Shown here: piece after piece, positions 9,233 through 34,008 of the stretch | How positions within the stretch are numbered: position 1 is the first letter of the stretch | How the letters are laid out: each line of letters opens with the position of its first letter | NCBI GenBank assembly: GCA_021732995.1 | Contig: JAKFWA010000001.1 | Coordinates: 1-35,991, forward strand | DNA from: Planctomycetaceae bacterium | GTDB lineage: Bacteria; Planctomycetota; Planctomycetia; Planctomycetales; Planctomycetaceae | Reading direction: 5' to 3' | DNA length: 35,991 nucleotides | Notes under the pieces: generated by a model | What the model was told of the DNA's origin: nothing | The model's input: only the letters and a program-made list of their open reading frames with translations | Database searches by the model: none | Made by a program: the position numbers and the translations under genes

Positions 9233-9254
9233 CTCCCGCAACGGCACTTGCTCG

Positions 9255-9330
9255 AACAACGCGGCTCCTGCGATCCGGGAATACGGCCAAACGACTGATC
9301 TCGGACACAGGAGCCGCGTTGTTGTTTTTT
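9255..9330 (+). terminator. Rho-independent terminator
   Basis: A perfect 16-bp stem, AACAACGCGGCTCCTG (9255-9270) with CAGGAGCCGCGTTGTT (9308-9323), encloses a 37-nt loop and is followed by GTTTTTT. It lies 22 nt after the thioredoxin-fold gene and insulates it from the downstream carbon island. Confidence 0.85.
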
Positions 9331-9467
9331 GATCGTGCGGTGGCCAAGTTCGAGGGATTTGCGAATTCAGAGAATTAAAACAACTGTTCCCATTGACCAA
9401 CTGGACGCTTCCTAAGGAACGTACTCACGCTGCCGCTGCCGGCTCTCAAACGGAGTGACGAGGTTAC

Positions 9468-11780: not shown

Positions 11781-11832
11781 CCTCAACCACAGCCGGTGAC
11801 TTCGTCGGCGAATCGTAAGGAGACGCTGCCAG

Positions 11833-13191: not shown

Positions 13192-13195
13192 TTGT

Positions 13196-13221
13196 CCAGC
13201 CTGATGGGCACATCAGGCTGG
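13196..13221 (+). terminator. Terminator-like hairpin
   Basis: Perfect 11-bp stem CCAGCCTGATG / CATCAGGCTGG with a GGCA loop, 4 nt after the stop of the second SulP gene. No T-tract follows, so it may slow or stabilise the mRNA end rather than terminate. Confidence 0.55.
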
Positions 13222-13440
13222 GTGAAGTCTCTACGTCGGGGCTCTTCCCTCACTGCGGAGAACAGCAGAGACGCATCCAAAAGAATACATACAAACACAT
13301 TAAGTCCAACAAGGAGCGAGTCGCCGCATTCTGTTGCTGTTTTTTTACCGGACTGACGTTTTGTCAGCGAGACGGAACATCCCTTGCGTCAATCGACCAA
13401 CACGGGATGGTCCGTCCTCCGCAGCGTCCGAAAGCAGCAC

Positions 13441-15033: not shown

Positions 15034-15068
15034 GACCCAATCGCACATGCGTTCGGCGCATTGGGTCT
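15033..15068 (+). terminator. Terminator-like hairpin
   Basis: AGACCCAAT (15033-15041) pairs with ATTGGGTCT (15060-15068), with extra C/G pairs inside. It overlaps the stop codon of the third SulP gene. No T-tract, so confidence is moderate. Confidence 0.45.
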
Positions 15069-15272
15069 CTTCCGACAAAGCTGAAATCAAACTCACTCTC
15101 AAGGAACCTTGCACCAGTTCATCCACGCCTGAGTGCGCATGTTGCCAGATTTTCACGGATCACGCCGCCCTGCCAAAAAATCGCGAAATCATTCCAGTTT
15201 CGCGGCGATGGGTGGCCAGACGACGTCAGTCCTCAGCAACTTGTGACCCGCTACTCGTGGAGTACCTACCGC

Positions 15273-16994: not shown

Positions 16995-17019
16995 CGGCTT
17001 TGCAAGGCCGATCATCGCA

Positions 17020-17053
17020 GAGGGGCTCGCCCGATTCATCGAGCGAGCCTCTC
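17020..17053 (+). terminator. Terminator-like hairpin
   Basis: GAGGGGCTCGC (17020-17030) pairs with GCGAGCCTCTC (17043-17053) over a 12-nt loop, between the fourth SulP gene and dabA. No T-tract follows, so read-through into dabA remains possible. Confidence 0.5.
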
Positions 17054-17091
17054 GCATTCCCGACAACGATCATCCTGCAGAGGCATTCGTC

Positions 17092-20000
17092 GTGACTTCA
17101 TCTTCTGCTGAAACGCTGAGCCCGTCCGAATTCGAACGATTGCGGCAGATCATCATCAAGGCCGCAGATCTGCTGCCTTCCCAAGGCCCGATTACAGCGT
17201 ACGTGTTTGATAATACTTTGCGGGCACTCGAGGACCTTCCGTTCCACGAAGCACTCAAACGTGGCGGACCGCTTTTTGGCTGTGAGCCTTATCTCTCGCT
17301 GGCGAGATTTCAGCAGGAGTATGAACGAGGTCGCATCACTGACGCAGACCTGGAAGCAGTGGTCAAAGAGGACCTCGGCGAAAACGCTCAGCAAAACATC
17401 CTCGGACTTTGCACGCGCTCCGAATTGTGGCTCGCCATGCTGAAATTTCCGCTGCGCGCAGCTTCCGCCGCGGAACTTCGCTGGTTCATCGCCGAGTCCG
17501 ACGCGCTTAAGAAATTCCTGCCCAACGCTGCCCCCAGCCTGCGTGAAGCACCTCTCGATCGAACACGTCGCTGGATTCTGCAAGACGTGCTGCCGCACTG
17601 GTCGGAGACAAAATCCCGCGATGGACGCCCCCCTGCCCCGTCCAGGTTCTCACTGTTCGATGACGTCTTCAATGGTTTTGACGTGGGACAGATCGAACGC
17701 TGGCCAGATCACGTTTGGACTGAGTTCTGCCTGCAAACCCTGTGGCGCGTCTCACATCAAATCGCCAGTACCGTTCCGCTGGCACCGGTTGTCGGTCCAC
17801 CTAGACGCCCGCGCGATATCCTGCTGGAACTGACCAACGAAGACAGCGATGTTCTCGTCAGCAGTGTCCTTGTTCGCTTATGTGCGGCGTTCACCGATCA
17901 GGGGCTGGCCGAGTGGGTTCTTCCGCATCGCGAAGAAGGTTTGTTCGCCGCGTTCATCAAGATCTATGGCCTGTCAGGCGGACCTCCCGCTGAGTGGTTG
18001 CGCGGACTCGACAAAGAACTCGACCGCATCGCCGAGCAACGTCTGGGGCCGTTGGACTCGATTCTGGAATCGTTGCAACTGCTGGGAGTCACCGAAGACG
18101 ACTGGACCGATTTCATCTCGACAACACTGCTCGCTCTGCGCGGCTGGGCAGGCTTGCTCTGGCAGAACGAAGTTCGCTCGGACCGAGTACCGATCCCGGT
18201 ACCAGCCGGAACTCTCATTGAGTTCATGGCCGTGCGATTAATTCTGGATCGATTCGCGCTGGAGTCGATCGCTCGTCGGCACGGCGTTGCGAAGGAAATC
18301 TGGCAGCACGGAGCAAGGCCGCAGGTCAAACCGAACCACACAGAAGACCGTATCGAAGCCAGAACTTTCCTGCTGTTTCAGGTCTCGCAGTTCATGGGAT
18401 GGTATCCCTCGGTGCTGTTCGGCTTGTCCGCAGCACAAACCAGCGATCTCGTAAGGGAACTCGAGACCTTCAGCGAACTGGAGCGGCGGCGGCTGTTTCA
18501 AATCGCGTTTGAAAGAAACTATCGCCAGCGAGCGCTCAACGCATTCTCAGTACAGACACGCCAACAGGCCAAGCGCGTTGAGGACGTTCAATTTCAAGCG
18601 GTCTTCTGCATCGACGCTCGCGAAGAGTCATTCCGGCGACATCTCGAGGAAACGAATCCGCGCGTCGAAACATTCGCTGCTCCCGGCTTTTACTGTGTGC
18701 CAATTTACTATCGCGGCGTCGAGGATGCCCACTTCTCCACCCTGTGCCCGATTGTGGTGCGACCTCAGCACTGGATCATCGAGGAACCGCTGTATTCGAT
18801 GACGCAGGTAGAAGGCCGCCGCGCAGCAACCCGCAAGGCTCTGGGGACAGCCCAGCATCAGGTGCACGTCGGGTCGCGCAGCATTCTGAAGGGCGCATTG
18901 CTCTCCGCGAGCATCGGCGTCTTCGCTTCGGTGCCACTGGTCGCCCGCGTCTTGTTCCCGCGCCTCACGGCCCGTATTCGCCGCAAAGCGGAAAGCCTGG
19001 TCAAGCCGCTACCAGTCACTCGGCTGAGGCTGGAACGCCTTGACGAAAAGCCCAGTCAAACCGACAGCGGCTTCGGTTTCAGCTTGCCTGAAATGATCAA
19101 CTTCGGGGAGCGCGTGTTGCGAGATATCGGGCTGACGCAGGGATTCGCACCCATTGTGATGTTCTTTGGACACGGATCCGCGTGTCAGAACAACCCCCAC
19201 AAGTCCGCTTATGACTGCGGAGCCTGCACGGGCATGGCCGGTTCTCCCAACGCCAGAGCATTAGCAGCGATGCTTAATGATCCACGCGTTCGCGAAGCGC
19301 TCGCAACTCGGAATATTATTATCCCGGCAACCACCTATTTCCTGGGTGGCTTGCATAATACTGGCGATGATACCACGACGTTCTACGACCTCGATCTCTT
19401 GCCGCGAGCACACCGACCGATGTTTGAGGCAGCGAAGGACACGCTCGATCAGGCTTGCGAACGAAATGCTCACGAACGCTGCCGCCGATTTTACTCAGCG
19501 CCGCTCAACCTCACTCAGAGCGACGCACTACTGCACGTTGAAGATCGCACTGAAGACCTCGCCCAAGTCCGTCCAGAATTTGGAAACTCAACGAACGCAC
19601 TGTGCTTTGTGGGACGTCGCTCGCGAGTCCGTGGCTTGTTCATGGACCGTCGCTGCTTCATGCACTCGTACGACCCGACTACTGATGACGCGGAGGCAAC
19701 GATTCTCGCGCGTATTCTCGGACCGGTTGTTTTCGTGTGTGCCGGTATCAATCTGCAATACATGTTTTCGTACATCGATTCGCCGGGCTGGGGGAGTGGG
19801 ACGAAACTGCCGCACAACATCACGTCGCTGCTGGGCGTGATGGATGGAGCCGCGAGCGACTTGCGCACCGGCCTGCCGTGGCAAGGCGTCGAGATCCACG
19901 AACCGGTGCGACTGCTGTTTGTGATCGAAAGCACTCCGGAAATTCTGGAGAAGATCATGAACCGCAATCCCGTGGTCGGTCGGCTGATTCGCAACGAGTG

Positions 20001-20172
20001 GGTACAGCTCGCCATCCTTAACCCGGAATCAAACGAAATACTGCATTACAAGAACGGCAAGTACGAGCCTTACCATCCCGACGTCGTAGACCTGCCAGCA
20101 GTAGCAAAGTCTTCAGATTGGTATCATGGATGTCGCGAGCACCTGGGCTTCGCGACCATCAGGAGCAGCTAA
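17092..20172 (+). CDS. dabA: DabA-type inorganic carbon uptake protein (DUF2309/UPF0753)
   Basis: DabA is the soluble, zinc-binding, carbonic-anhydrase-like subunit of the DAB dissolved-inorganic-carbon accumulator, which together with a membrane subunit traps CO2 as bicarbonate using the ion gradient. The GTG at 17092 has GAGG 8 nt upstream; the product is 1026 aa, a usual length for large DabA forms. The proposed zinc ligands are all present with the spacing known from Halothiobacillus DabA: C506-I-D508 (FCIDAREES) and, 15 residues apart, H694 (FFGHGSACQNNP) and C709 (YDCGACTGM). The N-terminal half carries the GGPLFGCEPYL and PHWSETKS blocks of the family. Two NuoL/NuoM-like genes follow, which is the expected partner context. 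Confidence 0.95.
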   Translation: MTSSSAETLSPSEFERLRQIIIKAADLLPSQGPITAYVFDNTLRALEDLPFHEALKRGGPLFGCEPYLSLARFQQEYERGRITDADLEAVVKEDLGENAQQNILGLCTRSELWLAMLKFPLRAASAAELRWFIAESDALKKFLPNAAPSLREAPLDRTRRWILQDVLPHWSETKSRDGRPPAPSRFSLFDDVFNGFDVGQIERWPDHVWTEFCLQTLWRVSHQIASTVPLAPVVGPPRRPRDILLELTNEDSDVLVSSVLVRLCAAFTDQGLAEWVLPHREEGLFAAFIKIYGLSGGPPAEWLRGLDKELDRIAEQRLGPLDSILESLQLLGVTEDDWTDFISTTLLALRGWAGLLWQNEVRSDRVPIPVPAGTLIEFMAVRLILDRFALESIARRHGVAKEIWQHGARPQVKPNHTEDRIEARTFLLFQVSQFMGWYPSVLFGLSAAQTSDLVRELETFSELERRRLFQIAFERNYRQRALNAFSVQTRQQAKRVEDVQFQAVFCIDAREESFRRHLEETNPRVETFAAPGFYCVPIYYRGVEDAHFSTLCPIVVRPQHWIIEEPLYSMTQVEGRRAATRKALGTAQHQVHVGSRSILKGALLSASIGVFASVPLVARVLFPRLTARIRRKAESLVKPLPVTRLRLERLDEKPSQTDSGFGFSLPEMINFGERVLRDIGLTQGFAPIVMFFGHGSACQNNPHKSAYDCGACTGMAGSPNARALAAMLNDPRVREALATRNIIIPATTYFLGGLHNTGDDTTTFYDLDLLPRAHRPMFEAAKDTLDQACERNAHERCRRFYSAPLNLTQSDALLHVEDRTEDLAQVRPEFGNSTNALCFVGRRSRVRGLFMDRRCFMHSYDPTTDDAEATILARILGPVVFVCAGINLQYMFSYIDSPGWGSGTKLPHNITSLLGVMDGAASDLRTGLPWQGVEIHEPVRLLFVIESTPEILEKIMNRNPVVGRLIRNEWVQLAILNPESNEILHYKNGKYEPYHPDVVDLPAVAKSSDWYHGCREHLGFATIRSS

Positions 20173-20255
20173 CGACGAGCATGAACCGCTCGCAGATCCG
20201 GATGTTGTCAGTATCTACTCGGATTCAGCATTCACGCATGATTGGACGTTAGACT

Positions 20256-21599
20256 GTGGATTCCATCGCTCCTTACCTTGGCACATTGGTTGTCGCCGTT
20301 CCGGCCCTGCTGGTGCTGGTCGTCGGTGCTGCCTCGTTATTCGGACGGCCGCTGCCGGAACGGAAGCTCACGCGCTGCATTCAGTTCGCCATTGTCACCG
20401 GGCTGCTCGCGGCTCTGGTCATGCTGGCTCTCATGCTCATCACCGGCACGCGCCATGTGCCCATTGAACTCGGCGACTGGGTTTCCATTCCACACTACCA
20501 CTTTCATATCAAGTTCATTTTTGACCGCCTGTCAGTCCCGTTTGTTATTCTTACATTTCTGCTCTGCGGCACAGTTGGAGCCTTCGCGGCCAATTACATG
20601 CATCGCGAGCCCGGCTTCACCCGCTTTCATATCTCCTATGCAATTTTCGTGCTGGGCATGGTGACAACATCGCTCGCCGGCACGATTGAGACGCTGTTCG
20701 CCGGTTGGGAATTTGTTGGTTTATCCTCCGCTCTGCTGGTTGCGTTCTTTCACGAACGCCCTGCTCCAGTTCGCAACGGGTTGCGAGTCTGGGCCGTTTA
20801 TCGAGTCTCAGACGCCGCACTGCTGCTGGCCGCCGTCGTCATGCACCATTTGCGAGGTCACGGTGACTTCGACCAACTCCTCGGCAACGCATCCTGGCCG
20901 GAAGGCGTCAGCCATATTGAGTCCGGCGCAACGTTCGTGGTTGGTGCACTCTTACTGCTGGCCGCTGCTGGCAAGTCGGCTCTGGTACCTTTCTCAAGCT
21001 GGCTACCCCGTGCGATGGAAGGCCCGACGCCATCCAGTGCAATTTTCTATGGAGCACTTTCGGTTCACCTGGGAGCATTCCTGCTGTTGCGTTTCAGCCC
21101 TCTGCTCGACGCATCGCCCGCACTCCGCGTCGCAGTGATTGTCATTGGGCTGATCACCGCCGTCTTCGCAGCCATCACGGCGCGTGTGCAGTCCGACATT
21201 AAGTCGGCATTGAGTTACGCATCGCTAACGCAAGTCGGATTGATTGTTATGGAAATTGGGCTGGGACTGCGCTACCTCGCCCTAATTCATATTCTCGGAC
21301 ACGGTTGCGTGCGGACCCTGCAATTCCTGCGAGCCCCTGCCCTGCTCCAGGACTATCGCACGCTCGAAAATGCTATTGGCAAAAAGCTCCCCAGTCGGTC
21401 TGCAGGCGTTCGCGAATGGGCGTACCGGTTCGCGTTGGAACGTGGTTACCTCGACATCCTGCTTGACGAATACATCGCCAGACCGGTGATCTGGTTCTTC
21501 AAAAAGAGTGACGATCTCGAACGCCGCTACGTCGCTTGGCTCAGAGGCTCCGTTGCTGCAACCACCGACAAGCGAGATGACGCATCACTGGAAGACTAA
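20256..21599 (+). CDS. dabB: NuoL/DabB-like ion-translocating membrane subunit
   Basis: GTG start at 20256, the first possible start, with a weak ribosome site. The 447-aa polytopic protein belongs to the complex I antiporter (Proton_antipo_M) family: the TM5 glutamate is in [10 protein letters not shown], the TM7 lysine in [26 protein letters not shown], followed by the [16 protein letters not shown] segment. At the position of the TM12 lysine in NuoL (H..FKAxLFL) it reads [10 protein letters not shown], that is arginine. It is shorter than NuoL and lacks the long C-terminal lateral helix. Lying 83 nt after dabA, it is the natural DabB partner, coupling DabA to the proton or sodium gradient. 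Confidence 0.88.
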
Positions 21600-21608
21600 G
21601 ACGATCCA

Positions 21609-21630
21609 TAGCCGTAGCCGTAGCCGTAGC
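21609..21630 (+). repeat. Hexanucleotide microsatellite (TAGCCG)3.7
   Basis: Three full TAGCCG units plus TAGC, in the 66-nt gap between the two antiporter-like genes. Confidence 0.8.
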
Positions 21631-21665
21631 GAGCGAATACTGACTCAATTAGTGACACCAAGGCC

Positions 21666-23177
21666 ATGCCTGAATTGCTTATTCCAGAACTTCATCTGCC
21701 ACTCATCGAGTTGGCCATCTTGTTCCCGCTGCTCGGCGCGATTCTGGTTTCGCGTATGAGACAACCGGAAACGGCCCGCCGCTGGAGTCTCGCGTTCGCC
21801 GCGCTGTCGCTGCTGAGTACAACTATCGCCTGGCAGGATTTCATCGGCCTTGGAGTGCCGCTGGCTCATGATCACTGGGATGTTGTCGGCGAAATGTTTG
21901 GCCGCAATGTGTTTGCCATCGACTCGGTCACTGCCCCTCTGCTCCCACTGATATCGCTGCTGTACGTACTGACTACTCTCGCAACTCTGCGAACCAAAAT
22001 TCGGCGTTTCTCGTTCGCGTGGACGATGGTCTCCATGTCGCTTTCGCTGGCGACATTCTGCTGCCAGCATGAGTGGGGCGTGATCGGGCTCCTGACGCTT
22101 GCCACGTTGCCGCCTTATTTTGAACTCCAGAGCCGCGGCAAATCCACTCGCGTTTACGTCATCCACATGGCCGCGTTCGTCGGTCTGATGATCTTTGGCT
22201 GGGCGTGCGTGTGCATCGAATCTAAAGCGCCGGTGCATTCGCTGTTCGCGATCCTGCCGTTGTTCCTGGCAGTGCTCATTCGAAGCGGAGTCGCACCAAC
22301 TCACGTGTGGCTGACCGACCTCTACGAAAACGCCACCTTCGGCACCGCCCTGCTCTTCACTACTCCACTGTCCGGAGCCTACGCAATCGTCCATTTGGTA
22401 TTACCCATTGCGCCGGGCTGGGTTTTGCAAAGTATCGGATTGGTATCATTGCTCACCTCCGTCTACGCGGGCGGCATGGCCATCGTTCAAACCGACGTTC
22501 GGCGCTTCTTCAGCTATCTGTTTCTCAGTCAGTCGTCTCTGGTGCTTGTGGGCTTGGAAAGCGTGAGCCACATCGGGCTCACCGGCGGCCTATGCGTATG
22601 GGCATCCGTGGTGCTGGCCTTGGGCGGATTGGGCCTGACGCTGCGAGCTGTCGAGTCGCGGTTCGGACACGTGACGTTGACACAATATCGCGGCCTTTAC
22701 GAACACGTGCCCCTGCTGGCGGTTTGTTTCCTGTTAACGGGCTTAGGAAGCGTCGGCTTTCCGGGAACGATCGGCTTCGTCGGAACGGAGATCCTGATCG
22801 ACGGTGTGGTCGAGGTTTACCCCCACGTCGGTGCCGCAGTGGTCATTGCTGCGGCCTTGAACGGCATCGCAATCGTGCGGGCCTACTTCTTGTTGTTCAC
22901 GGGATCAAAGCATGCCTCTTCCATCCCGCTGAATGTTGGCTTAGCCGAAAAAATCGCCGTGCTGACCTTAGCCCTGCTGATCCTGGGTGGTGGATTCCTG
23001 CCGCAGCCGGGGATCTCAATGAGTAGCAAAGCTGCCGCAGAAATTATTCAAGCGCGACCGGCAGTACTGGCTCCCGAAGAACCACACCACGAGCCGGAAG
23101 AAGAGCAGTCGCCTCATGAGCGAGAGGATCACGAGCAAGAAGCCCACGAGGTGGAAACAGCACCAGCCCAACACTGA
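21666..23177 (+). CDS. Second NuoM/NuoL-like membrane subunit with His/Glu-rich tail
   Basis: 503 aa, about 12-14 membrane segments, 66 nt after the dabB-like gene, so part of the same module. The fold is recognised from IELAILFPLLGAIL, APTHVWLTDLYENA, VYAGGMAIVQTDVRRFFSYLFLSQSS and GFPGTIGFVGTEILI, which mirror NuoM. Charged residues used for proton translocation look altered: the TM5 region reads LTLATLPPYFE without the E of 'WEaMLLP', the TM7 lysine position is R (LIRSGVAPTHVWL) and the next lysine position reads TTPLSGAY. The last 40 residues are Glu/His-rich (EEPHHEPEEE..., HEREDHEQEAHE), possibly metal-binding. It may be structural or regulatory beside the DabB-like subunit. Confidence 0.85.
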   Translation: MPELLIPELHLPLIELAILFPLLGAILVSRMRQPETARRWSLAFAALSLLSTTIAWQDFIGLGVPLAHDHWDVVGEMFGRNVFAIDSVTAPLLPLISLLYVLTTLATLRTKIRRFSFAWTMVSMSLSLATFCCQHEWGVIGLLTLATLPPYFELQSRGKSTRVYVIHMAAFVGLMIFGWACVCIESKAPVHSLFAILPLFLAVLIRSGVAPTHVWLTDLYENATFGTALLFTTPLSGAYAIVHLVLPIAPGWVLQSIGLVSLLTSVYAGGMAIVQTDVRRFFSYLFLSQSSLVLVGLESVSHIGLTGGLCVWASVVLALGGLGLTLRAVESRFGHVTLTQYRGLYEHVPLLAVCFLLTGLGSVGFPGTIGFVGTEILIDGVVEVYPHVGAAVVIAAALNGIAIVRAYFLLFTGSKHASSIPLNVGLAEKIAVLTLALLILGGGFLPQPGISMSSKAAAEIIQARPAVLAPEEPHHEPEEEQSPHEREDHEQEAHEVETAPAQH

Positions 23178-27395: not shown

Positions 27396-27429
27396 CCGCT
27401 CCAGACCAACTTGAGAATCAGAGATCCCA

Positions 27430-27493
27430 GACCCGACGAAAAGATTTCGAGACGCGCACATTTACCAGATGTAGTCTCGATTGCATTCGGATC
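27430..27493 (-). ncRNA. Y-RNA-like RNA 1 (short type, no tRNA module)
   Basis: Lower stem 27430-27434/27489-27493 (one G.U), GAATGC on the 5' strand (rc of 27483-27488), perfect 7-bp upper stem TCGAGAC/GTCTCGA (27474-27480 with 27447-27453), then ACTACA and the 3' motif TTCGTC (rc of 27435-27440). The terminal loop reads TACATCTGGTAAATGTGCGC, which can form ACAT/ATGT. It matches RNA 5 closely. It carries the putative Ro60-binding core but no tRNA mimic, and is the last unit of the array in transcription order. Confidence 0.75.
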
Positions 27494-27550
27494 ATGGCTC
27501 TCTGTCATGTTGACCTCGGTGCGATCGGATCGCAAGAAATGTAAATCAAG

Positions 27551-27705
27551 CTGCGATGACCAGAGTTGTGAAACGTCGTGCTCTACCAGACTGAGCTACA
27601 GCCCCGCCTCAAACTCAGCTTCGCTGCGCTTGAGGTAGGGCTGGTGGGATTCGAACCCACGACCCCGAGATTAGAAATCTGTAGTTCCACAGGCATTCAT
27701 CGCAG
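27551..27705 (-). ncRNA. Y-RNA-like RNA 2 with permuted tRNA-like module
   Basis: Perfect 7-bp lower stem CTGCGAT/ATCGCAG (27551-27557 with 27699-27705), GAATGC motif, upper stem GUGGAAC/GUUUCAC where one pair is G.U only in minus-strand sense, supporting that direction. T-arm GTGGG-TTCGAAT-CCCAC at 27644-27660, acceptor CAGCCC/GGGCTG, D-arm GCTC-AGTCTGGTA-GAGC. The acceptor halves are joined by an extended hairpin (CCTCAA...AGC-GAA-GCT...TTGAGG), so no free CCA end exists. The 3' tRNA half precedes the 5' half. An additional AGATT-TCT-AATCT hairpin sits just after ACTACA. Confidence 0.85.
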
Positions 27706-27713
27706 TTGTACGC

Positions 27714-27846
27714 ACGAGGGCAACGAGAATCGGCGAGACAGTTTCCTGAGCTATAGTTTGTTGCCAAACCACCGAGACTTGAACCCGGGACCTCTCGCTT
27801 GCGCGAGCGCTCTGACCATGTAGTCACACCTGCATTTGCCGCTCGT
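27714..27846 (-). ncRNA. Y-RNA-like RNA 3 with permuted tRNA-like module
   Basis: Lower stem 27714-27722/27837-27846 with one bulge, AATGC motif (CAAATGC instead of CGAATGC), upper stem GGTGTGAC/GTCTCGCC with one U-U mismatch, then TACA. T-arm CCGGG-TTCAAGT-CTCGG at 27772-27788. The acceptor-like stem TGGTTTG/CAAACTA is capped by a GCAA tetraloop. A second GCAA hairpin, CTCGC-GCAA-GCGAG, replaces the variable or anticodon arm. GCTCAG is present, but its GAGC partner is on the other side of the T-arm, so the D-arm differs from a standard tRNA. Confidence 0.8.
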
Positions 27847-27868
27847 TTGCCTTGATTTTGATACCTGC

Positions 27869-27971
27869 CACGCAACAACGAGAAGCGAAGAGAATGCCGC
27901 CCGCCTTAAGAGCGGGCGGCAAGATTCGAACCCGCAAGCACAAATGTATTCTCGTCAGCATTTGTAGCGCA
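27869..27971 (-). ncRNA. Y-RNA-like RNA 4 with T-arm and acceptor stem only
   Basis: Lower stem 27869-27877/27963-27971 (one mismatch, two G.U), AATGC motif, GAGAAT/ATTCTC upper stem, TACA. T-arm GCGGG-TTCGAAT-CTTGC at 27919-27935 is followed by a 9-bp GC-only stem GCCGCCCGC/GCGGGCGGC with a 7-nt loop in acceptor position. No D-arm is seen. ACAAATG near the 5' side can also pair with CATTTGT, giving an alternative fold. This is an intermediate between the full tRNA-like and short types. Confidence 0.7.
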
Positions 27972-27982
27972 ACAGATCCAGT

Positions 27983-28055
27983 TACCAAGCCGACGAGTTT
28001 TTGTTTGTGACAAGCACATTTATCAGATGTAGTCACGACAGCATTCGACTTGATA
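27983..28055 (-). ncRNA. Y-RNA-like RNA 5 (short type)
   Basis: Nine-bp lower stem 27983-27991/28047-28055 with two pairs that are G.U only in minus sense. The 5' strand reads GTCGAATGC, an exact fit to the Y RNA Ro60-binding consensus GNCGAAN(0-1)G as I recall it; the 3' strand carries CTCGTC. Upper stem GTGAC/GTCAC, then TACATCTGATAAATGTGC, nearly identical to the loop of RNA 1. No tRNA module. Confidence 0.8.
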
Positions 28056-28071
28056 GTTTCAGTGAGCCACG

Positions 28072-28157
28072 AGTTGCTCAGACCGACGAGATTCCGCGAG
28101 ACACTTATCGACCAGGTAGATTGGCTGTAGTCCCACAGGCATTCGATCTGAGCAACT
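28072..28157 (-). ncRNA. Y-RNA-like RNA 6 (short type, long lower stem)
   Basis: Thirteen-bp lower stem 28072-28084/28145-28157 (one G.U), the longest in the array. CGAATGC and CTCGTC motifs on opposite strands, upper stem GUGGGAC/GUCUCGC (two G.U), ACTACA, and an approximately 24-nt loop unlike RNAs 1 and 5. No tRNA module. Confidence 0.8.
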
Positions 28158-28202
28158 ATTGGCTCCTGCAGGCGCGTTTCGGTACGAGAAAATCAGGATC
28201 CG

Positions 28203-28344
28203 TCGCAACAACGAGATCGGTGAAACACTGCTCTACCAGTTGAGCTACAGCTCGGTGCTGATTCTTCTCAGCGAGAAGAACTCAAAGAATGGAGCTGACG
28301 GGACTCGAACCCATAACTTGTAGTTCCACGCGCATTTGTCGCGA
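28203..28344 (-). ncRNA. Y-RNA-like RNA 7 with permuted tRNA-like module
   Basis: Eight-bp lower stem 28203-28210/28337-28344, AATGC motif, upper stem GUGGAAC/GUUUCAC (as in RNA 2), ACTACA. T-arm ATGGG-TTCGAGT-CCCGT at 28298-28314; acceptor CAGCTC/GAGCTG; D-arm GCTC-AACTGGTA-GAGC. The two acceptor strands are joined by an insert containing a perfect 8-bp hairpin TTCTTCTC-GCT-GAGAAGAA. Confidence 0.85.
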
Positions 28345-28399
28345 TCAGGCTCATGTGTAAACCGTCCTTACCGACACGCCGAGCACCTTCAAAGTTCAG

Positions 28400-28543
28400 A
28401 TTCGTAGCGACGAAATTGATGAAACATGCAACGCGTGCCCCATTACACTTCGCCCCGGAAAACTGATTGATTCGGGGCGGCGGGATTCGAACCCACTCTT
28501 CGTCCGTGGAAAGGATGTAGTTCCACCGGCATTCGTTACAAAT
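28400..28543 (-). ncRNA. Y-RNA-like RNA 8 with a different tRNA-like module
   Basis: Lower stem 28400-28408/28535-28543 (one mismatch), CGAATGC and TTCGTC motifs, upper stem GUGGAAC/GUUUCAU, ACTACA. T-arm GTGGG-TTCGAAT-CCCGC at 28480-28496; perfect 7-bp acceptor CGCCCCG/CGGGGCG with a 15-nt loop. The D-arm is of another tRNA class, GTG-TAATGGGG-CAC. Its 5' end begins 12 nt after the stop codon of the protein gene upstream, so it is probably processed from a shared transcript. Confidence 0.85.
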
Positions 28544-28555
28544 ACGCTCGTGACA

Positions 28556-29245
28556 TCAGGCCGCGGCTGCCTGCTTTACGACTGCCTCGACTATGAATTG
28601 TGCGTCCAGAACTCGAACTGGCATCAGCCGGAAATTGGGAATGGGATTACTATTCGTCCAGGCGATTGTGCGCCACAACGCCAGCACACCCGCTCCCTGA
28701 CTCGCGAATTCTGTACGCCGAACCAGCTCGCGCACATACGCCAGATGAGCCAGTTCAAAAGACAAGGATTCGTTGCGTGCGAACAATTTTCGCTGCTCCG
28801 TAGGGATCTCGACGCTCAGTTCCGCCACGAACTGCTTCAGATAAACCCGTTTCAGATCTTCCGCAGTGTGATAGTCATTTCGTGACGGTGTCCGGGGAAC
28901 CACGTAATCCAATCGCGTTCCCCAGCTACACCAACCGCAGCAGCATTGGCGTCGCGCTCTTGTCAATTTCGGCGCTGCTTTCAGCTCGAACGACGTCGCC
29001 AGATAGGAAATCAACAAGTTCGCGAAAGCACGCATGTCTGTGAGCCCATCCAGAATCGAACTGGGCAACGAATCCCGAAAGCGTTGCAACCACTCCAAGG
29101 CGGCATCCGTCGAATCTGTGGACTGATGGATGGCATCAAAGGTCACAGTTCCCGCGCTCACCGCGTCTTTCAGCCAGCGAAACATCCCGTATGACTTCTC
29201 ATGCAAAGTAAGCACGCGGTCGAGTTCCTGTGATGTAAAGATCAT
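28556..29245 (-). CDS. Unrecognised protein encoded inside the Y RNA array
   Basis: Start at 29245 (MIFTSQELDRVLTLHEKSYGMFRWL) has GAGG 6 nt upstream. 229 aa, no signal peptide or membrane segment, so cytoplasmic. Mostly helical; the middle carries a dense, presumably conserved block, RQCCCGWCSWGTRLDYVVPR (about residues 116-135), which could bind a metal or form an RNA-contacting loop. The next block, DLKRVYLKQFVAELSVEIP, is basic and aliphatic. I do not recognise the family. It lies between Y RNAs 9 (61 nt upstream) and 8 (12 nt downstream) on the same strand, so it is very likely cotranscribed with them and may act with the Ro60 particle (inference from position only). Confidence 0.8.
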   Translation of the reverse strand: MIFTSQELDRVLTLHEKSYGMFRWLKDAVSAGTVTFDAIHQSTDSTDAALEWLQRFRDSLPSSILDGLTDMRAFANLLISYLATSFELKAAPKLTRARRQCCCGWCSWGTRLDYVVPRTPSRNDYHTAEDLKRVYLKQFVAELSVEIPTEQRKLFARNESLSFELAHLAYVRELVRRTEFASQGAGVLALWRTIAWTNSNPIPNFRLMPVRVLDAQFIVEAVVKQAAAA

Positions 29246-29305
29246 GTCACACCTCAGAAGGATATGCCGACACCTTCGGCTGGTTACCAAGAAAGGCGTC
29301 TTCAA

Positions 29306-29454
29306 ACGGACAGCGACGAGAAGAGTGAAACAAACCGTGCTTTCGCACGTCCAGCGTTCTAACCAATTGAACTACTTCAGCCTCGCGGCCGAAGGTGGAA
29401 CTTGAACCCACAACCTCTGGATTGAATGTAGTTTCACTAGCATTCGCTGCTCGT
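29306..29454 (-). ncRNA. Y-RNA-like RNA 9 with complete permuted tRNA-like module
   Basis: Long lower stem 29306-29314/29446-29454 (one mismatch), GCGAATGC and CTCGTCGC motifs, perfect 7-bp upper stem GTGAAAC/GTTTCAC, ACTACA. All tRNA parts are visible: anticodon-type stem CTGGA/TCCAG, T-arm GTGGG-TTCAAGT-TCCAC at 29395-29411, acceptor CTTCGGC/GCTGAAG closed by a C-GCGA-G GNRA loop, and D-arm GTTC-AATTGGTTA-GAAC. A CGTGC-GAAA-GCACG hairpin stands where the anticodon loop would be. Confidence 0.9.
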
Positions 29455-29491
29455 GTTTAGCAAACGAGATCAAGAATTGAACGATTGAAAA

Positions 29492-29639
29492 ACAAGCAGC
29501 GACGAGGTGAGTGAAACACAGTGCTTTCGCACTTCCGGTGCTCTATCCAACTGAGCTACTCCAGCCTTGCGGCTGAAGACGGGATTCGAACCCGCCACAT
29601 CCGGATCCACATGTAGTTTCACAAGCATTCGCTAATCGT
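29492..29639 (-). ncRNA. Y-RNA-like RNA 10 with complete permuted tRNA-like module
   Basis: First unit in transcription order. Lower stem 29492-29500/29631-29639, GCGAATGC and CTCGTCGC motifs, perfect upper stem GTGAAAC/GTTTCAC, ACTACA. Anticodon-type stem CCGGA/TCCGG, T-arm GCGGG-TTCGAAT-CCCGT at 29579-29595, acceptor CTTCAGC/GCTGGAG closed by C-GCAA-G, D-arm GCTC-AGTTGGATA-GAGC, and an AGTGC-GAAA-GCACT hairpin at the anticodon side. Very similar in layout to RNA 9, suggesting duplication, but with a different tRNA body. Confidence 0.9.
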
Positions 29640-29683: not shown

Positions 29684-29718
29684 CTCCCCCCCTTCGCAAG
29701 GGGGGATTGAGGGGGGTT
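29684..29718 (+). repeat. C/G-run repeat, left copy
   Basis: CTCCCCCCCTTCGCAAGGGG... followed by GGATTGAGGGGGGTT. It is the inverse of the copy at 30270-30304 and together they flank the DUF559 gene. Internally it can form CCCCCCTT/AAGGGGGG. Confidence 0.8.
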
Positions 29719-29746: not shown

Positions 29747-30217
29747 CTAGCCAACATCCTCAGCACCGTCAGCTTCCTGCCTTCGCAAGTCGCGCACGCT
29801 ATTCCCAGTCCCGCGGATCTTCCGGCGCGACTGGAGTCCAATATCCATGTTCGCCTGTTGCTCGCGAGCAGCTCTGGCAATCGCTTCGCAGACGCCTTCG
29901 AGGTTCTCGTAAACGTCGACATTCAAAAACCTGACAACACAGATGCCATTCCGCTCAAGAAACTGATCTCGAACCGCGTCCTTCGCTCTGGCAGTTGGTT
30001 GGAAATGACTATCCCCATCCAACTCAACGCACAATCTCAACGATGGGCAGTAGAAGTCCAGGATATAAGCCCCGACTCCAAACTGCCGTCGAAACTTTAC
30101 GCCACAGATCTGACGGCCCTTCAACACGCTCCAAAGTAATACCTCAGCCGGCGCCGGCTGATTTCTCAGTTCTCGCCGACGCTCGGTTTGCTCGGAGCGG
30201 TTGAAGAACTCGGTCAT
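29747..30217 (-). CDS. DUF559 (Vsr-like endonuclease fold) protein
   Basis: Start at 30217 (MTEFFNRSEQTERRRELRNQ) is used; it has only a weak GAGAA ribosome site, and upstream in-frame codons run into the repeat. The 156-aa protein matches DUF559: QPAPAEVLLWSVLKGRQICG, VKFRRQFGVGAYILDFYCPS, LRLCVELDGDSH and the closing IRVVRFLN-like ICVVRFLNVDVYENLEGV. This is the very-short-patch-repair endonuclease fold with the PD-(D/E)xK-type D and ExD residues. The gene sits between inverted C/G-run repeats, a setting seen for many DUF559 genes, and separates Ro60 from the Y RNAs. It is probably a passenger cassette rather than part of the RNP system. Confidence 0.88.
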   Translation of the reverse strand: MTEFFNRSEQTERRRELRNQPAPAEVLLWSVLKGRQICGVKFRRQFGVGAYILDFYCPSLRLCVELDGDSHFQPTARAKDAVRDQFLERNGICVVRFLNVDVYENLEGVCEAIARAAREQQANMDIGLQSRRKIRGTGNSVRDLRRQEADGAEDVG

Positions 30218-30269
30218 TGTCGTTCTCAGTGATCGGACGTCGTGAGTTGTCGAGAGTATAGTAACAACG

Positions 30270-30304
30270 ATCCCCCCTTTAATCCCCCCTTGTGAAGGGG
30301 GGAG
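30270..30304 (-). repeat. C/G-run repeat, right inverted copy
   Basis: GATCCCCCCTTTAATCCCCC... then CTTGTGAAGGGGGGAGA; its reverse complement matches 29684-29718. Located 53 bp upstream of the DUF559 start. Confidence 0.8.
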
Positions 30305-30359
30305 ATTTGTGGACCTTCGTATGAGATCGCAGTCGTCATCGACGTCGCCTGTCAGGTTT

Positions 30360-30394
30360 CCCCCCTTCACAAGAGGGGATTAAGGGGGGGGATC
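30360..30394 (+). repeat. C/G-run repeat, third copy
   Basis: CCCCCCTTCACAAGAGGGGA followed by TTAAGGGGGGGGATC, in the same orientation as the left copy, 17 nt after the end of the Ro60 gene. It forms an inverted pair with 30270-30304 and may act as the transcript-end hairpin of the Ro60 gene. Confidence 0.75.
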
Positions 30395-30411: not shown

Positions 30412-31998
30412 CTACAACGTCACACTCTCAATCACCTTCACCCAGTGATTTTCCGTCGCGTTACCGGCTGCGACATCCGCGATCAGCGAGAAGACCTGGT
30501 CGCTGAAGCCGCCGACATTCGTCACGTCGCGCTGCTCTTTGGCCTGAGTCGTCCCGTAAGGCTGGATGTCGATGCAGACTAGCTTCGCTTTCGGGTTCCG
30601 AGTCTTGAACTTGGCCCATTCGGCCATGGTCTCCGTCGCGCGACTACCAAAGTACTGCACGCGGGAAGAATCCATCCAGGACTCGTTGTCCGATACATAA
30701 ATCACCAGATCACCAGAGGCGTTCTGGCTGTTCAGGAACCGCAGGGGAGCCGAACAGCTCGTACCGCCGCTGGGCAGTGACGCCAGCTTGTGAGCGTTCG
30801 TCATCACTGAGTCACGTGGATTGAGCTGGCACTTCACAACATTGTCCGAGAACGGAATCACTTCCGCCGTCGGGTTCTTGCGCAGCATCGCGGCGGCGAC
30901 CAAAGCCGCCACATCGATACAGCGAACCTTGGAAGTTGAGCCCTGACGCTGACCGGTAACAGCAGACTGCATCGAACCCGAGACGTCCGGGAAGACGTAA
31001 ACCTTCCCAGCCACCTGCGGCACGTTGCGAATCGCCGTCTCCATCGCATCCTGCAACGCCTCGCGAATCACCAGCGGCACGTTCTCACCCGTGTTGAGGT
31101 AGGCCACCATCAACTGGTAAGGAAACGCCTTAGCTTTCTCGATGAGTTGCTCATTGCGCAGCCGTGAGGCGATGTCCGCAGCCAACTGGCCATCGTCAAG
31201 AACTCCGTGTCGAGCAAACGTGTTCAAGTTCATGCGAGTCGTCTGCCACGACGCGTTCCGGGCGATCTGCTTCCATTGACCACTGGTCAGCGGCAACGCA
31301 GTCAGCATCTGGAACGGTACGTCGGGAGGCGTCTCGTTCAAACCGCTCTCTTTGCCGACGACGCCCTTGAAGACCTCGAACTGCTGCACGACCGCTGGAA
31401 GTGCTGCCTGATCGACATCGCGGCCAATCAGGTAGCCCAGCAACGCCCGACGCTGTTCGTCGCGCGGTTTCGGGTGCACCATCTTGATGATGTCCGCCAA
31501 CGACGGTGAGTTACCCACCGAGCCGTGGAAGAGTTGCTCGTCCGTGCGTGCTTCGAGCCATTGTAGAATCATCCGCTTCGGCAATGAGCCCAGGCTTTTT
31601 CGGCCCACGACTCCCGAACGCATGATCTGCACGAAGTTACGAAGCATCTTCGGCGAGTCGATGACGCGATCGAAGATCTCAGCCATCAAGCCCGGTGACT
31701 TCACGGACAAGACCGCACACAGCAACGCAGGCAGGTCTTTCATGTAGCCACGCTCGCGAGCGTACAACGCCGTGCGGGCAATGAACTCCGGCTCAACCGT
31801 CTGGCACAGCTGCAGAATGTTCTGCAGTTGCTGCTCGTCGGACGCGTAGAAAGTCGAGTTCAAGCAACCCGTCGCCGCAAACTGAGCCAACGCGTGCTTA
31901 TAGCTGAATTGATAAGCCGTACCGCCAGCCTCGTTGACGGCATCCGTCTTCGGCTGAAGCATGCCAACGATCGTCTGAAACAAAGTCTTGCTTGCCAT
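30412..31998 (-). CDS. rsr: Ro60 orthologue (TROVE domain + von Willebrand A domain)
   Basis: Start at 31998 with AAGGAG 8 nt upstream. 528 aa, usual length for bacterial Ro (Rsr). The TROVE ring of HEAT-like helices covers about residues 15-330 (YKHALAQFAATGCLNSTFYA, TALYARERGYMKDLPALLCAVL, RNFVQIMRSGVVGRKSLGSLPK, WQTTRMNLNTFARHGVL). The vWA domain follows with an intact MIDAS, D338-V-S340-G-S342. Ro proteins bind Y RNA on the ring surface and act in RNA quality control and, with PNPase in Deinococcus, RNA degradation. The neighbourhood fits: Y RNA array downstream on the same strand and divergent rtcR upstream. No rtcB or rtcA is in the window. Confidence 0.97.
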   Translation of the reverse strand: MASKTLFQTIVGMLQPKTDAVNEAGGTAYQFSYKHALAQFAATGCLNSTFYASDEQQLQNILQLCQTVEPEFIARTALYARERGYMKDLPALLCAVLSVKSPGLMAEIFDRVIDSPKMLRNFVQIMRSGVVGRKSLGSLPKRMILQWLEARTDEQLFHGSVGNSPSLADIIKMVHPKPRDEQRRALLGYLIGRDVDQAALPAVVQQFEVFKGVVGKESGLNETPPDVPFQMLTALPLTSGQWKQIARNASWQTTRMNLNTFARHGVLDDGQLAADIASRLRNEQLIEKAKAFPYQLMVAYLNTGENVPLVIREALQDAMETAIRNVPQVAGKVYVFPDVSGSMQSAVTGQRQGSTSKVRCIDVAALVAAAMLRKNPTAEVIPFSDNVVKCQLNPRDSVMTNAHKLASLPSGGTSCSAPLRFLNSQNASGDLVIYVSDNESWMDSSRVQYFGSRATETMAEWAKFKTRNPKAKLVCIDIQPYGTTQAKEQRDVTNVGGFSDQVFSLIADVAAGNATENHWVKVIESVTL

Positions 31999-32301
31999 GT
32001 CTGCAACTCCTTCAGTGCGGTGGCCGTGTTTTGCTAACGATCAGCCTTAAAGCAGCGGCTGTTCCACACAGGCAAACGAATGACACGGATTCGATGTAAC
32101 CCGTTCTGGGCCAAGGCAAAGAATTTTCGAACTAGTCCGAGCCTCATCATTTCTCCCGTCTCGAATCGCCTCTGTAGATTATCTCATAGGATATGCAATA
32201 ATCCGAAATGATAAGTCGGTCATGACGCGGCGTTATCACAATGAGCAGCATTGCCGCTGAACGCAGTAAGTCGCGCGTTATTGCGACGGAGGATGTTGAA
32301 A
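31999..32301. promoter_or_regulatory. Divergent rsr-rtcR control region
   Basis: About 300 bp between the divergent Ro60 and RtcR genes. It holds the sigma54 promoter candidate at 32051-32068 and, at 32239-32253, CAATG-N5-CATTG just before rtcR within a larger CGG...CCG dyad (32229-32256), a possible operator. The centre (32165-32220) is AT-rich compared with its surroundings. Confidence 0.5.
32051..32068 (-). promoter_or_regulatory. Candidate sigma54 (-24/-12) promoter of the Ro60 gene
   Basis: Minus-strand sense TGTGGAACAGCCGCTGCT fits TGGCAC-N5-TTGCW: TGG-A-AC for the -24 box and CTGCT for the -12 box, with the obligatory GG-N10-GC spacing. Transcription would start near 32040, about 40 nt before the Ro60 ATG. 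A weaker GG-N10-GC site (AAGGCTGATCGTTAGCA) lies just downstream at 32033-32048. Both face rsr, as expected if RtcR activates it. Confidence 0.6.
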
Positions 32302-34008
32302 TTGGCCAAGCGTAAGCATGTTGCGATCGGCTTACTGGGATCGACGATAGACGCGGGGTTTGGGCCGAAGCGCTGGGACCGCTGGCGGCCTTCAGTCGCG
32401 GTGTGTCAGCACGAAGACCTGCTCATCGACCGCTACGAGCTGATCTACCAGACGCCACATGCCGAACTGCTGGGACAGGTTGTCGACGACATCCAGTCCG
32501 TGTCACCCCAGACCGAGGTGCGCACGCATCTGGTCGATCTGAAAGACCCCTGGGATTTTGAAGAAGTGTATGGCTCGCTGCATGACTTCGCGCGCGGTCT
32601 GGACATCAACGCCGAACGGGAGGACTGGCTGATCCACATGTCGACCGGCAGCCACGTGCAGCAAATCTGCCTCTTTCTGCTCACGGAGTCGCGACACATT
32701 CCCGGTCGGCTGCTGCAAACGTCACCGCCCCGGAAGAGTCCTCATCAGGCTCCCTCCAGGCAGAAGAAGCCGAGCGCTGCAGAGCGAAGGCGGCTGGGAG
32801 GCTCGCCACCGCCGGTCGAACAGAACTATGACGTGACGAAGGGCGAGTATCGGATCATCGACCTCGACCTGTCGCAGTACGACCGGCTGGCTCAGCGATT
32901 TGAGCGTGAGCGATCGGAAGGGGTGTCGTTCCTGAAGAGCGGCATTGAGACGCGCAACGCGCAGTTCAATCGCCTGATCGACGAGATCGAACATGTGGCT
33001 CAGCAGAGCCGCGCTCCGATGTTGCTGATGGGGCCGACCGGTGCGGGCAAGTCGAAGCTCGCCCGACGCATCTTCGAAATGAAAAAGTTGCGGCAGAAGA
33101 TTGCCGGGCAATTCGTCGAACTGAACTGCGCCGTTCTGCGCGGCGATCAGGCGATGTCGGCCCTCTTCGGGCACGTGAAGGGAAGTTTCACAGGCGCAAC
33201 GACTGACCGCCAGGGAGTCTTGAAAGCAGCCCATCAGGGCATGCTCTTCCTCGACGAGATCGGCGAACTGGGCATCGACGAGCAAGCGATGCTGCTGCGG
33301 GCGCTCGAAGAGAAACGCTTCATGCCGGTCGGCGCAGACAAGGACGTCACGAGCGATTTTCAGCTCATCGCCGGAACTAACCGCGATCTGCGAGCAGCGG
33401 TCGCTGACGGCTCATTCCGCGAAGACCTGCTGGCGCGCATTAACCTCTGGACCTTCGATCTGCCCGGCCTGAAGCATCGCCCCGAGGACATCGAACCGAA
33501 CCTGCAGTTTGAACTGGATGAACTGACCGCCGCGACCGGCAACCGAGTGACCTTCAATAAGGAAGCCCGCGAGCGGTTTCTGAAGTTTGCGACATCAGAC
33601 TCCGCGGAATGGAAGGCTAACTTCCGCGACCTCAACGCGGCGATCGTGCGGATGGCGACGCTGGCTCCGCAAGGCCGCATCACTCCGGATGTGGTCGATG
33701 GTGAGATCACCCGCCTGCGGACTGCGTGGAACTCAGCCGAGAGAAGGTCACCTCATGCAGGTCATCGCAATGCGAACTCGCTCATCGAAGAGTTGCTCGG
33801 CGAAAAGGCTGCGGCGGAGTTGGACCTCTTCGATCGCGTGCAACTGGAAGCAGTCCTCGAGGTGTGCCAAAAAAGTCGCTCTCTCTCAGATGCAGGACGT
33901 CAACTCTTCGCCGAATCCCGGAAGGCGAAGGCACAACCGAACGACGCAGATCGACTTCGTAAGTACCTCGCGCGGTTCAATCTCAGTTGGAGCGATCTCG
34001 GCCAATAA
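32302..34008 (+). CDS. rtcR: RtcR, sigma54-dependent activator with CARF sensor domain
   Basis: Start choice: ATG at 32293 directly abuts GGAGG (no spacer), whereas the TTG at 32302 is 9 nt from GGAGG and gives MAKRKHVAIGLLGSTIDAG, aligning with the E. coli RtcR N-terminus. 568 aa. CARF-type sensor about 1-180 (RWDRWRPSV, DPWDFEEVYGSLHDFARG, HMSTGSHVQQICLFLL), AAA+ domain with Walker A GPTGAGKS (244-251), sigma54 loop GSFTGA (294-299; usually GAFTGA) and Walker B FLDE (316-319), then a C-terminal helix-turn-helix region (SLSDAGRQLF). A basic linker of roughly 30 residues between CARF and IIDLDLSQYD is longer than in E. coli. It is expected to sense cyclic-phosphate RNA ends and switch on the Ro60/Y RNA genes. 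Confidence 0.96.
   Translation: MAKRKHVAIGLLGSTIDAGFGPKRWDRWRPSVAVCQHEDLLIDRYELIYQTPHAELLGQVVDDIQSVSPQTEVRTHLVDLKDPWDFEEVYGSLHDFARGLDINAEREDWLIHMSTGSHVQQICLFLLTESRHIPGRLLQTSPPRKSPHQAPSRQKKPSAAERRRLGGSPPPVEQNYDVTKGEYRIIDLDLSQYDRLAQRFERERSEGVSFLKSGIETRNAQFNRLIDEIEHVAQQSRAPMLLMGPTGAGKSKLARRIFEMKKLRQKIAGQFVELNCAVLRGDQAMSALFGHVKGSFTGATTDRQGVLKAAHQGMLFLDEIGELGIDEQAMLLRALEEKRFMPVGADKDVTSDFQLIAGTNRDLRAAVADGSFREDLLARINLWTFDLPGLKHRPEDIEPNLQFELDELTAATGNRVTFNKEARERFLKFATSDSAEWKANFRDLNAAIVRMATLAPQGRITPDVVDGEITRLRTAWNSAERRSPHAGHRNANSLIEELLGEKAAAELDLFDRVQLEAVLEVCQKSRSLSDAGRQLFAESRKAKAQPNDADRLRKYLARFNLSWSDLGQ

Follow-up and report, generated by a model that had tools for sequence, protein, structure and literature searches.

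A ten-unit array of Y RNA genes with putative tRNA-like modules beside the Ro60 ortholog gene rsr of a Planctomycetaceae bacterium

The locus described here lies on contig JAKFWA010000001.1 (positions 1 to 35,991 of the forward strand; assembly GCA_021732995.1) in the 9.4-Mb genome of a Planctomycetaceae bacterium, and this whole stretch of 35,991 nucleotides is called the window below. An array of ten Y RNA units, U1 to U10, occupied 29,638 to 27,427 on the minus strand, and the Ro60 ortholog gene rsr (30412..31998, 528 amino acids) lay upstream of it on the same strand, with rtcR divergent to rsr (see below). The rsr product matched Pfam vWA_Ro60 (E 2.8e-18) and TROVE (E 2.7e-6), both above the cut-off, and matched the profile of the solved Rsr 2nvo (E 1.2e-21); it scored 73.8 bits with the NCBIfam Rsr equivalog, whose cut-off of 900 was not reached. 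Each unit had an AATGC core, and an eleventh AATGC (28,947) was located within the open reading frame (ORF) 28556-29245 and belonged to no unit. The units shared one design: (i) on the 5' side, a lower stem ending in GA or AA, an AUGC strand, and the upper stem; (ii) distally, an NUA loop (CUA in nine units and AUA in U7) followed by a variable part; and (iii) on the 3' side, the second upper-stem strand, a loop, CUCGUY or a near form, and the closing of the lower stem.

Three covariance models were applied to the window. R1 was built from 34 short units and R2 from 31 tRNA-like units, all from other loci and with zero sequences from the window or from a same-genus genome (L050/L030); these training units were chosen by a detector that required motif plus pairing, and window units were not used. 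R3 was built from seven RNAs of a second architecture, termed class 2 (L050, L061, L069, L076, L115, L117, and L213). The calibration by Infernal was short, so all E-values are rough. The sample of rsr loci comprised 80 named loci (L050-L129), the best 80 of 105 obtained by alignment of five Rsr proteins. Unit limits were taken from the R2 matches, except that those of U8 were taken from R3. Three units were short and carried no tRNA-like module: U5 (28077..28152; R1 45.6 bits, E 5.5e-13), U6 (27984..28054; R1 50.7 bits, E 1.1e-14), and U10 (27427..27496; R1 54.2 bits, E 7.2e-16). The remaining seven held predicted tRNA-like parts: (i) YrlA-type modules in U1 (29493..29638; R2 75.5 bits, E 7.9e-20), U2 (29307..29453; R2 76.7 bits, E 3.7e-20), U3 (28401..28542; R2 82.3 bits, E 9.2e-22), U4 (28202..28345; R2 78.4 bits, E 1.2e-20), and U9 (27550..27706; R2 105.7 bits, E 1.9e-28), the last with a long hairpin in addition; (ii) a minimal module with T arm and acceptor stem and no D arm in U7 (27869..27971; R2 49.1 bits, E 2.9e-12), the T loop of which read GGTTCGAATC; and (iii) a putative class-2 module, apparently a tRNA permuted at the D loop, in U8 (27712..27847; R3 98.5 bits, R2 46.4 bits).

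R2 gave exactly ten matches in the 36-kb window, and these were the ten units (E 1.9e-28 to 2.7e-9); no eleventh match appeared there at E <= 10. In the window, R1 matched only U10, U6, U5, and U8 (E 7.2e-16 to 6.6e-8). The motif-plus-pairing detector recovered nine of the ten units, missing U7, and gave four matches at score >= 15 in 1.17 Mb of reversed control sequence. Chance occurrence or a low-complexity repeat was rejected on the basis of this control, by the re-dealing of strands (see below), and by the R2 matches. The YrlA model (RF02553) of Rfam 15 matched nine of ten units, with E-values from 1.3e-13 to 0.32, and for four units the match was no stronger than E 0.003; U9 and U4 reached 64.3 and 63 bits, respectively, U8 was a weak match (21.5 bits), Rfam's alignment of U1 was out of register, and U10 had no match to this model up to E 10. 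Elsewhere in the genome, seven off-contig matches of the YrlA model (E 0.007 to 7.9, among the best 150 of 574 candidates) overlapped tRNA genes and were rejected as further Y RNAs.

Strand pairing was compared across 254 cores (10 from the window and 244 from elsewhere, 75 loci together), whose 5' and 3' parts were picked by sequence alone; 15 cores without a 3' anchor, U9 among them, were left out, and where a unit had several 3' anchors the best was taken, equally for own and re-dealt partners. In the nine window units with a 3' anchor, own strands paired at 11.89 of 13 positions; re-dealing the 3' strands among these units lowered the mean to 9.73 (standard deviation 0.47; maximum 11.44 in 1,000 deals). 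For all 239 units, the own strands paired at 11.89 of 13 positions, against 8.77 when re-dealt (standard deviation 0.07; 100 deals). For the outer six lower-stem pairs, pairing was present in 573 of 696 cells, where 1,000 shuffles gave 370 on average and 406 at most. This count took single-anchor units only (146 units, 116 distinct rows, and 68 loci), and the shuffles ignored relatedness; each of the five outermost pairs was seen as GC, CG, AT, and TA. In 31 non-window sequences, RNAalifold recovered five stems (lower, upper, T, acceptor, and D), and 25 of the 31 pairs showed changes on both sides. Covariation across relatives was thus strong.

The ten units are bacterial Y (Yrl) RNAs and not a new kind of RNA: rsr adjoined them on the same strand, and their basal stem and internal loop covaried. 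An initial annotation of the window had described ten Y-RNA-like units of one design on the minus strand beside a TROVE/Ro60 gene on the same strand, with stem sequences that differed while pairing was kept, and had asked for a covariance model and covariation in relatives; the AATGC cores, the Pfam and 2nvo matches to rsr, the re-dealing of strands, the recovery of all ten units by the held-out R2, and the two-sided changes bear all of this out. Its account of the motifs stood in part. ACTACA, called almost invariant, did follow the core in nine of ten units (in U7, AATACA with the partner altered to match), but CTCGTC or CTCGTT, given for the 3' strand, was exact in only seven, with TTCGTC in U3 and U10 and CTGGTC in U9. 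The Ro60-binding consensus GNCGAAN(0-1)G that it named fitted strictly in one unit only (U6), with CGAATG present in six of ten; the Rfam consensus CgaAUGC fitted better, and the named form was therefore not taken as defining. That annotation overlooked the tRNA-like modules of seven units, the predicted control by rtcR and sigma-54, and the commonness of small arrays.

A reading of the array as a decaying relic of tRNA or mobile-element insertions, only seemingly ordered, could draw on the DUF559 gene and the unknown-family ORF inserted at the locus and on the lack of a D arm in U7. It is very improbable, since all ten units match R2 with both stems, own strands pair better than re-dealt ones in the nine units tested, most tRNA-like units keep same-genus counterparts (see below), and covariation contradicts it.

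The YrlA-type modules were compared with ordinary tRNAs. In U1, U2, and U9, the first half of the module ran through the 3' strand of the anticodon stem, the variable loop, the T arm, the 3' strand of the acceptor stem, and a closing loop, and the second half through the 5' strand of the acceptor stem, the D arm, and the 5' strand of the anticodon stem; the acceptor stem was closed by GCAA (U1), GCGA, or a long hairpin. Judged from its sequence, such a module is a tRNA that is opened at the anticodon, where the Y stem now sits. U3 and U4 followed this order, their anticodon stem being harder to make out, and a long hairpin closed the acceptor stem of U4; the order T arm, closed acceptor stem, and D arm above the Y stem was confined to U1-U4 and U9. 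This layout is the known YrlA design, for which D, T, and acceptor arms with a basal stem tethering Rsr, as well as tRNA modifications by TruB and DusA, are reported in the available text of PMC8394870. When rotated to tRNA order, the U1 module was 79% identical to host tRNA-Gly (59% in written order), and the best host tRNAs of the others were tRNA-Asp for U2 (76%), tRNA-Lys for U3 (68%), tRNA-Asp for U4 (72%), and tRNA-Gly for U9 (76%). The five rotated modules thus had 68-79% identity to the best host tRNA, against 55-59% in written order and at most 63% for shuffles. Among 48 host tRNAs of <= 78 bases, the median identity to the best tRNA of another isotype was 71%; by this measure the putative modules are as like host tRNAs as host isotypes are like each other. 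One-to-one mimicry of tRNA isotypes was unsupported, the best matches being to Gly, Asp, and Lys with close runners-up.

The order of a 3' half, a loop, and a 5' half is also that of permuted tRNA genes, whose precursors would give working tRNAs once their halves were ligated at the anticodon and the acceptor end was opened, and operons of this kind include the gene for the RtcB ligase. This origin is disfavoured to the point of being scarcely credible: no anticodon lies at the junction, where the Rsr-binding stem sits in the YrlA-type units; the anticodon arm of U8 is closed by a tetraloop; and ordinary tRNA genes are plentiful in the host, with 63 distinct ARAGORN entries across the stretches examined. 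ARAGORN found no tRNA gene in the window, and an RF00005 search of the genome, in which 150 of 232 candidates were scored, listed no match on this contig at E <= 0.01; ordinary tRNA genes were likewise rejected on these grounds. RF00005 was not among the Rfam matches of the window; three lower-scoring matches of the same clan lay outside that listing. Elsewhere in the genome, a tRNA array was observed on contig C35 (91402-93090, L164), with 15 RF00005 matches in 1.7 kb, many of them low-scoring and divergent.

U8 showed the other order of tRNA parts. Its first element was the 3' portion of a D loop and D stem (GGTCAGAGC); an anticodon arm closed by a tetraloop, AGGTC, a T arm, a closed acceptor stem, and TAGCTCAG came after it. 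It would accordingly be a tRNA opened in the D loop that keeps its anticodon arm without an anticodon. In the window, R3 gave U8 98.5 bits, with a same-genus ortholog of U8 in its training set, and any other unit at most 32.2 bits. R3 was then compared with R2 in 69 other loci (six training loci among the 80 and five unitless loci were excluded), and 12 units scored at least 20 bits higher with R3, in L058, L094-L098, L100, L101, L105, L106, L109, and L125. The class-2 order was inspected in six of these 12, being clear in L106, L105, L098, L109, and L125 and less clear in L058. Assignment to class 2 thus draws on the sequences, on a model trained with few RNAs, and on inspection of some of the units. 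L103 (R3 14.5 bits better) and L071 (R2 match absent) were not counted, L119 and L079 had similar R3 and R2 scores, and many YrlA-type units scored higher with R2.

Training members included, record names placed the class-2 type in planctomycetes, an acidobacterial metagenome-assembled genome (MAG), Planctomycetota-Verrucomicrobiota-Chlamydiota (PVC) and verrucomicrobial MAGs, and proteobacteria; by model score it was assigned to Variovorax strains, Xenophilus, Methylomonas koyamae, Undibacterium seohonense, Uliginosibacterium gangwonense, and another planctomycete. A class-2 pattern search of 392 genomes of the phylum matched 22, of which those other than G309 and the window mostly resembled coding sequence, and yielded one more convincing member (L193/L213 in G309, of the same phylum and another family), which lay in an array of at least six Y RNAs and was then added to the R3 training set. 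In the class-2 alignment the lower, upper, and T stems varied, and the D stem showed only one G-U change; its covariation was almost nil because its pairs were nearly invariant. Among four class-2 folds, the D stem was clearly formed only in L061. No description of this D-loop architecture was found in the open-access literature searched (a weak indication; key Y RNA papers lay outside the search).

Y RNA units were found in 75 of 80 named rsr loci; in the five unitless loci (L062, L063, L081, L092, and L124), the contigs ended <= 202 bases from the rsr match. Counts combined R2 matches (E <= 1e-4) with detector hits, which carry a small false rate, and are lower bounds because many contigs end early. 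Across 76 loci (the window and the 75 named), four had one unit, 15 had two, 16 had three, 22 had four, 14 had five, and one each had 6, 7, 8, 9, and 10, with a median of 4 units per locus. The initial annotation had taken one to a few Y RNAs as the rule and ten as exceptional. Small arrays proved usual (two to five units in 67 of 75 named loci), and ten is exceptional only in part. It is the largest count among the 76 cellular loci compared, but the window does not form a class of its own: Nannocystis arrays had nine (L108), eight (L110), and six (L107) units, and a viral contig with Rsr (L222, 165,072 bases) had twelve cores at 7760-9810, eleven of which matched R1/R2 at E <= 1e-4. The window thus stands at the upper end of a continuous range. 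No paper on Y RNA arrays this large was found in the open-access literature (again a weak indication, with key Y RNA papers outside the search).

Further occurrences were noted. rsr was found in 22 of 99 genomes searched, its own included, and R2 matches in 128 of 392 genomes of the phylum (best eight candidates per genome, partial tRNA-like matches included; no counts were drawn from these). Likely Y RNAs near Ro60 are said to have been described by Chen in 2014 for more than 250 species, reportedly with at least one per species tRNA-like. The viral contigs L220, L222, and L223, all with Rsr, had Y RNA arrays of their own, and the array of L222 was followed by what by eye seemed an ordinary tRNA gene. 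At 15 loci with a distant Rsr (L035-L049, ~44% identity), detector hits with scores >= 15 occurred in 10, and every such hit lay on the same strand as rsr and upstream of it, none downstream.

The array was compared with that of the same-genus genome, where the order was rsr, a Y RNA, an ORF, four Y RNAs, a DUF4956 gene, and rtcB. Within the window, unit identities were 34-66%, except for U1/U2 (78%), and U2 was closest to U1. Five units were closer to a same-genus unit than to their own array: U8 (82%), U1 (82%), U4 (73%), U3 (72%), and U9 (69%), U9 and U4 having one and the same nearest unit. U5, U6, U7, and U10 had no counterpart there (best <= 54%); the short types, missing from that genome, were found in many other loci. 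These data bear on a gene-dosage account, in which ten interchangeable Y RNAs were multiplied only to saturate Rsr in stress. Arrays of 2-10 units are common, the number of units varies within a genus (Variovorax and Nannocystis), four short units of viral contig L220 are near-identical tandem copies, and the absence of a same-genus counterpart for four window units would fit dispensable copies that come and go. The account is opposed by the low mutual identities, the five units nearer to a same-genus unit, and the keeping of three effector architectures; several types predate the two species and have stayed distinct, which argues against pure dosage, and we regard the account as rather unlikely.

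The rtcR gene (32251..34008, plus strand) encoded a CARF-type sensor joined to a sigma-54 activator (NCBIfam RNA_repair_RtcR 790 bits, cut-off 650; Pfam RtcR E 6e-76). By motif match, a sigma-54 type -24/-12 site, TGGAAC-N5-CTGCT (32051..32066, minus strand), started 68 bases upstream of the rsr start, with a score of 12.5 of 14.5 on a weighting of our own, and rpoN was present in the genome. Equally good sites were found in 63 of 80 rsr upstream regions (the window and 79 named loci; L084, with a cut rsr, was dropped), against 44 of 1,600 mononucleotide shuffles. By tblastn over 86 rsr stretches (the window, L030-L034, and L050-L129, with L030, L031, and L032, judged by length, on the same contigs as L050, L056, and L053), rtcR was found in 73 and rtcB in 67; the identity of rtcB to the query was 65-77% in many loci and only 25-30% in others, and three rtcB genes, including that of L030, were confirmed by Pfam.

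Two further genes lay at the array. A gene for a protein of unknown family with a cysteine patch (28556..29245, minus strand) stood between U2 and U3; it had no Pfam or NCBIfam match at E <= 1, and its AlphaFold model was confident (predicted local distance difference test, pLDDT, 85.3) and had no PDB match at E <= 0.001. A 55%-identical homolog occurred within the same-genus array, and homologs turned up in 6 of the 99 genomes searched, the host's among them. Four of the six had no rsr or had it on a contig other than that of the homolog, and the gene was treated as an insertion. A DUF559 gene (29747..30370, minus strand; Pfam DUF559 E 2.9e-29) stood between rsr and U1, and by tblastn the window itself was the only one of 86 rsr stretches with a match. 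Adjoining it, between rsr and the array, a GC-rich palindrome CCCCCCTTGCGAAGGGGGGG (29686-29705, minus strand) was observed; the DUF559 gene and palindrome are probably an insertion, which was not found in the other rsr stretches searched. Apart from the array, the plus strand at 9468-23177 of the window carried four consecutive SulP-family transporter genes, one a carbonic anhydrase fusion, and after them DabA and two NuoL-like genes; the cluster probably serves the uptake of inorganic carbon.

With a probability of about 75%, we propose that this is an rtcR-controlled Rsr locus whose ten distinct Y RNA genes supply mixed Rsr particles with exchangeable adaptors in tRNA-damage stress. tRNA fragments with 2',3'-cyclic phosphate ends would build up as the signal for RtcR; such a signal is reported for Salmonella, and the window contributes only the gene, the site, and the layout. 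RtcR with sigma-54 RNA polymerase would switch on rsr and the downstream array, the array transcript would be cut into RNAs of ~70-157 nucleotides, and each RNA would, by homology, bind Rsr via the common lower stem and internal loop (GAAUGC ... CUCGUC). Three effector ends would thereby be presented: (i) a bare hairpin (U5, U6, and U10); (ii) a tRNA permuted at the anticodon stem (U1-U4 and U9, minimal in U7); and (iii) one permuted instead at the D loop (U8). The predicted modules point to binding and not to tRNA function: with elbow sequences kept, the acceptor stem closed, and the anticodon absent, binding by elbow-recognising proteins without charging, decoding, or anticodon-loop cutting would be possible. 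Under such stress the adaptors might, for example, tether enzymes that handle tRNA, or PNPase, to which Rsr and YrlA bind according to the available text of PMC9879122. The available text of PMC7790460 states that tRNA fragments activate RtcR and that anticodon nucleases do not take the tRNA-like part of YrlA as a substrate.

The modules might instead be decoys, competing with tRNAs for anticodon nucleases or tRNA-targeting toxins of phages or rivals, so that their variety would cover more attackers. RtcR control links the array to tRNA cleavage, competitive nuclease inhibition by YrlA is proposed in the available text of PMC7790460, Rsr-bearing viral contigs have arrays too, and the module sequences differ. 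Yet the modules have no anticodon loop and do not clearly track tRNA isotypes, and three units have no module. We judge the decoy explanation unlikely.

Several observations weigh against the proposed set of adaptors. Different jobs for different units are something that we infer, and U5, U6, U7, and U10 are not shared with the same-genus genome. No unit reaches the RF02553 cut-off of 69 bits (best 64.3 bits), and the units were therefore filed as Y RNAs and not as RF02553. Minimum-energy folds of single sequences form the whole module only in U1, U2, and U9, and leave unformed the D arm of U3, the T and D arms of U4, the T arm of U7, and the D stem of U8. The locus has no rtcB beside the array, two rtcB genes being on other contigs, and so was not classed as a full RNA repair operon; nor is rtcA beside the array, its single match in the genome being on contig C15, ~72 kb from one of the rtcB genes. 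Two extra protein genes interrupt the layout, one between rsr and the array and one inside the array, and neither intrinsic terminators nor sigma-70 promoters above shuffles were found in the region.

A wider claim is put forward tentatively, at somewhat less than even odds: tRNA would have been grafted on the Ro60-binding stem at two sites at least (anticodon stem and D loop), and large arrays would be subfunctionalised adaptor sets presenting different elbow faces to different partners. If the adaptor reading is true, some bacteria may equip Ro60, an ancient protein and an autoantigen in lupus and Sjogren syndrome (available text of PMC4726728), with a set of exchangeable RNA adaptors, and bare hairpins together with two putative tRNA-mimic topologies under one tRNA-damage sensor would serve as a natural experiment into the purpose of the effector end. 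Class 2 is also assigned, by model score, to cultured named strains, and the question is therefore addressable in ordinary cultured strains.

The window was finally compared with known systems. With YrlA (RF02553; Salmonella YrlA, 6CU1 as named in the available text of PMC8394870), it shared the position adjoining rsr, lower-stem strands of the GAAUGC/CUUGUC type, and the CUA internal loop, and U1-U4 and U9 shared the order T arm, closed acceptor stem, and D arm; it differed from YrlA and the Salmonella rsr-yrlBA locus in having ten units instead of two, scores below the cut-off, three units without a tRNA-like part, and another order of tRNA parts in U8. With Salmonella rsr-yrlBA-rtcBA, as far as described in the available texts of PMC9879122 and PMC7790460, it shared divergent rtcR, a sigma-54 type site, and Y RNA genes 3' of rsr, but its rtcB and rtcA lie on other contigs and extra genes lie inside. 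The Nannocystis arrays resembled the window in that a long series of short and YrlA-type units followed rsr directly; unlike the window, L107, L108, and L110 had no rtcR or rtcB match within their 8-kb flanks, and other control may therefore act there. Viral contig L222 was like the window in having short and tRNA-like units after rsr, and differed in being viral, in its lower guanine-plus-cytosine (G+C) content, and in its larger number of cores.

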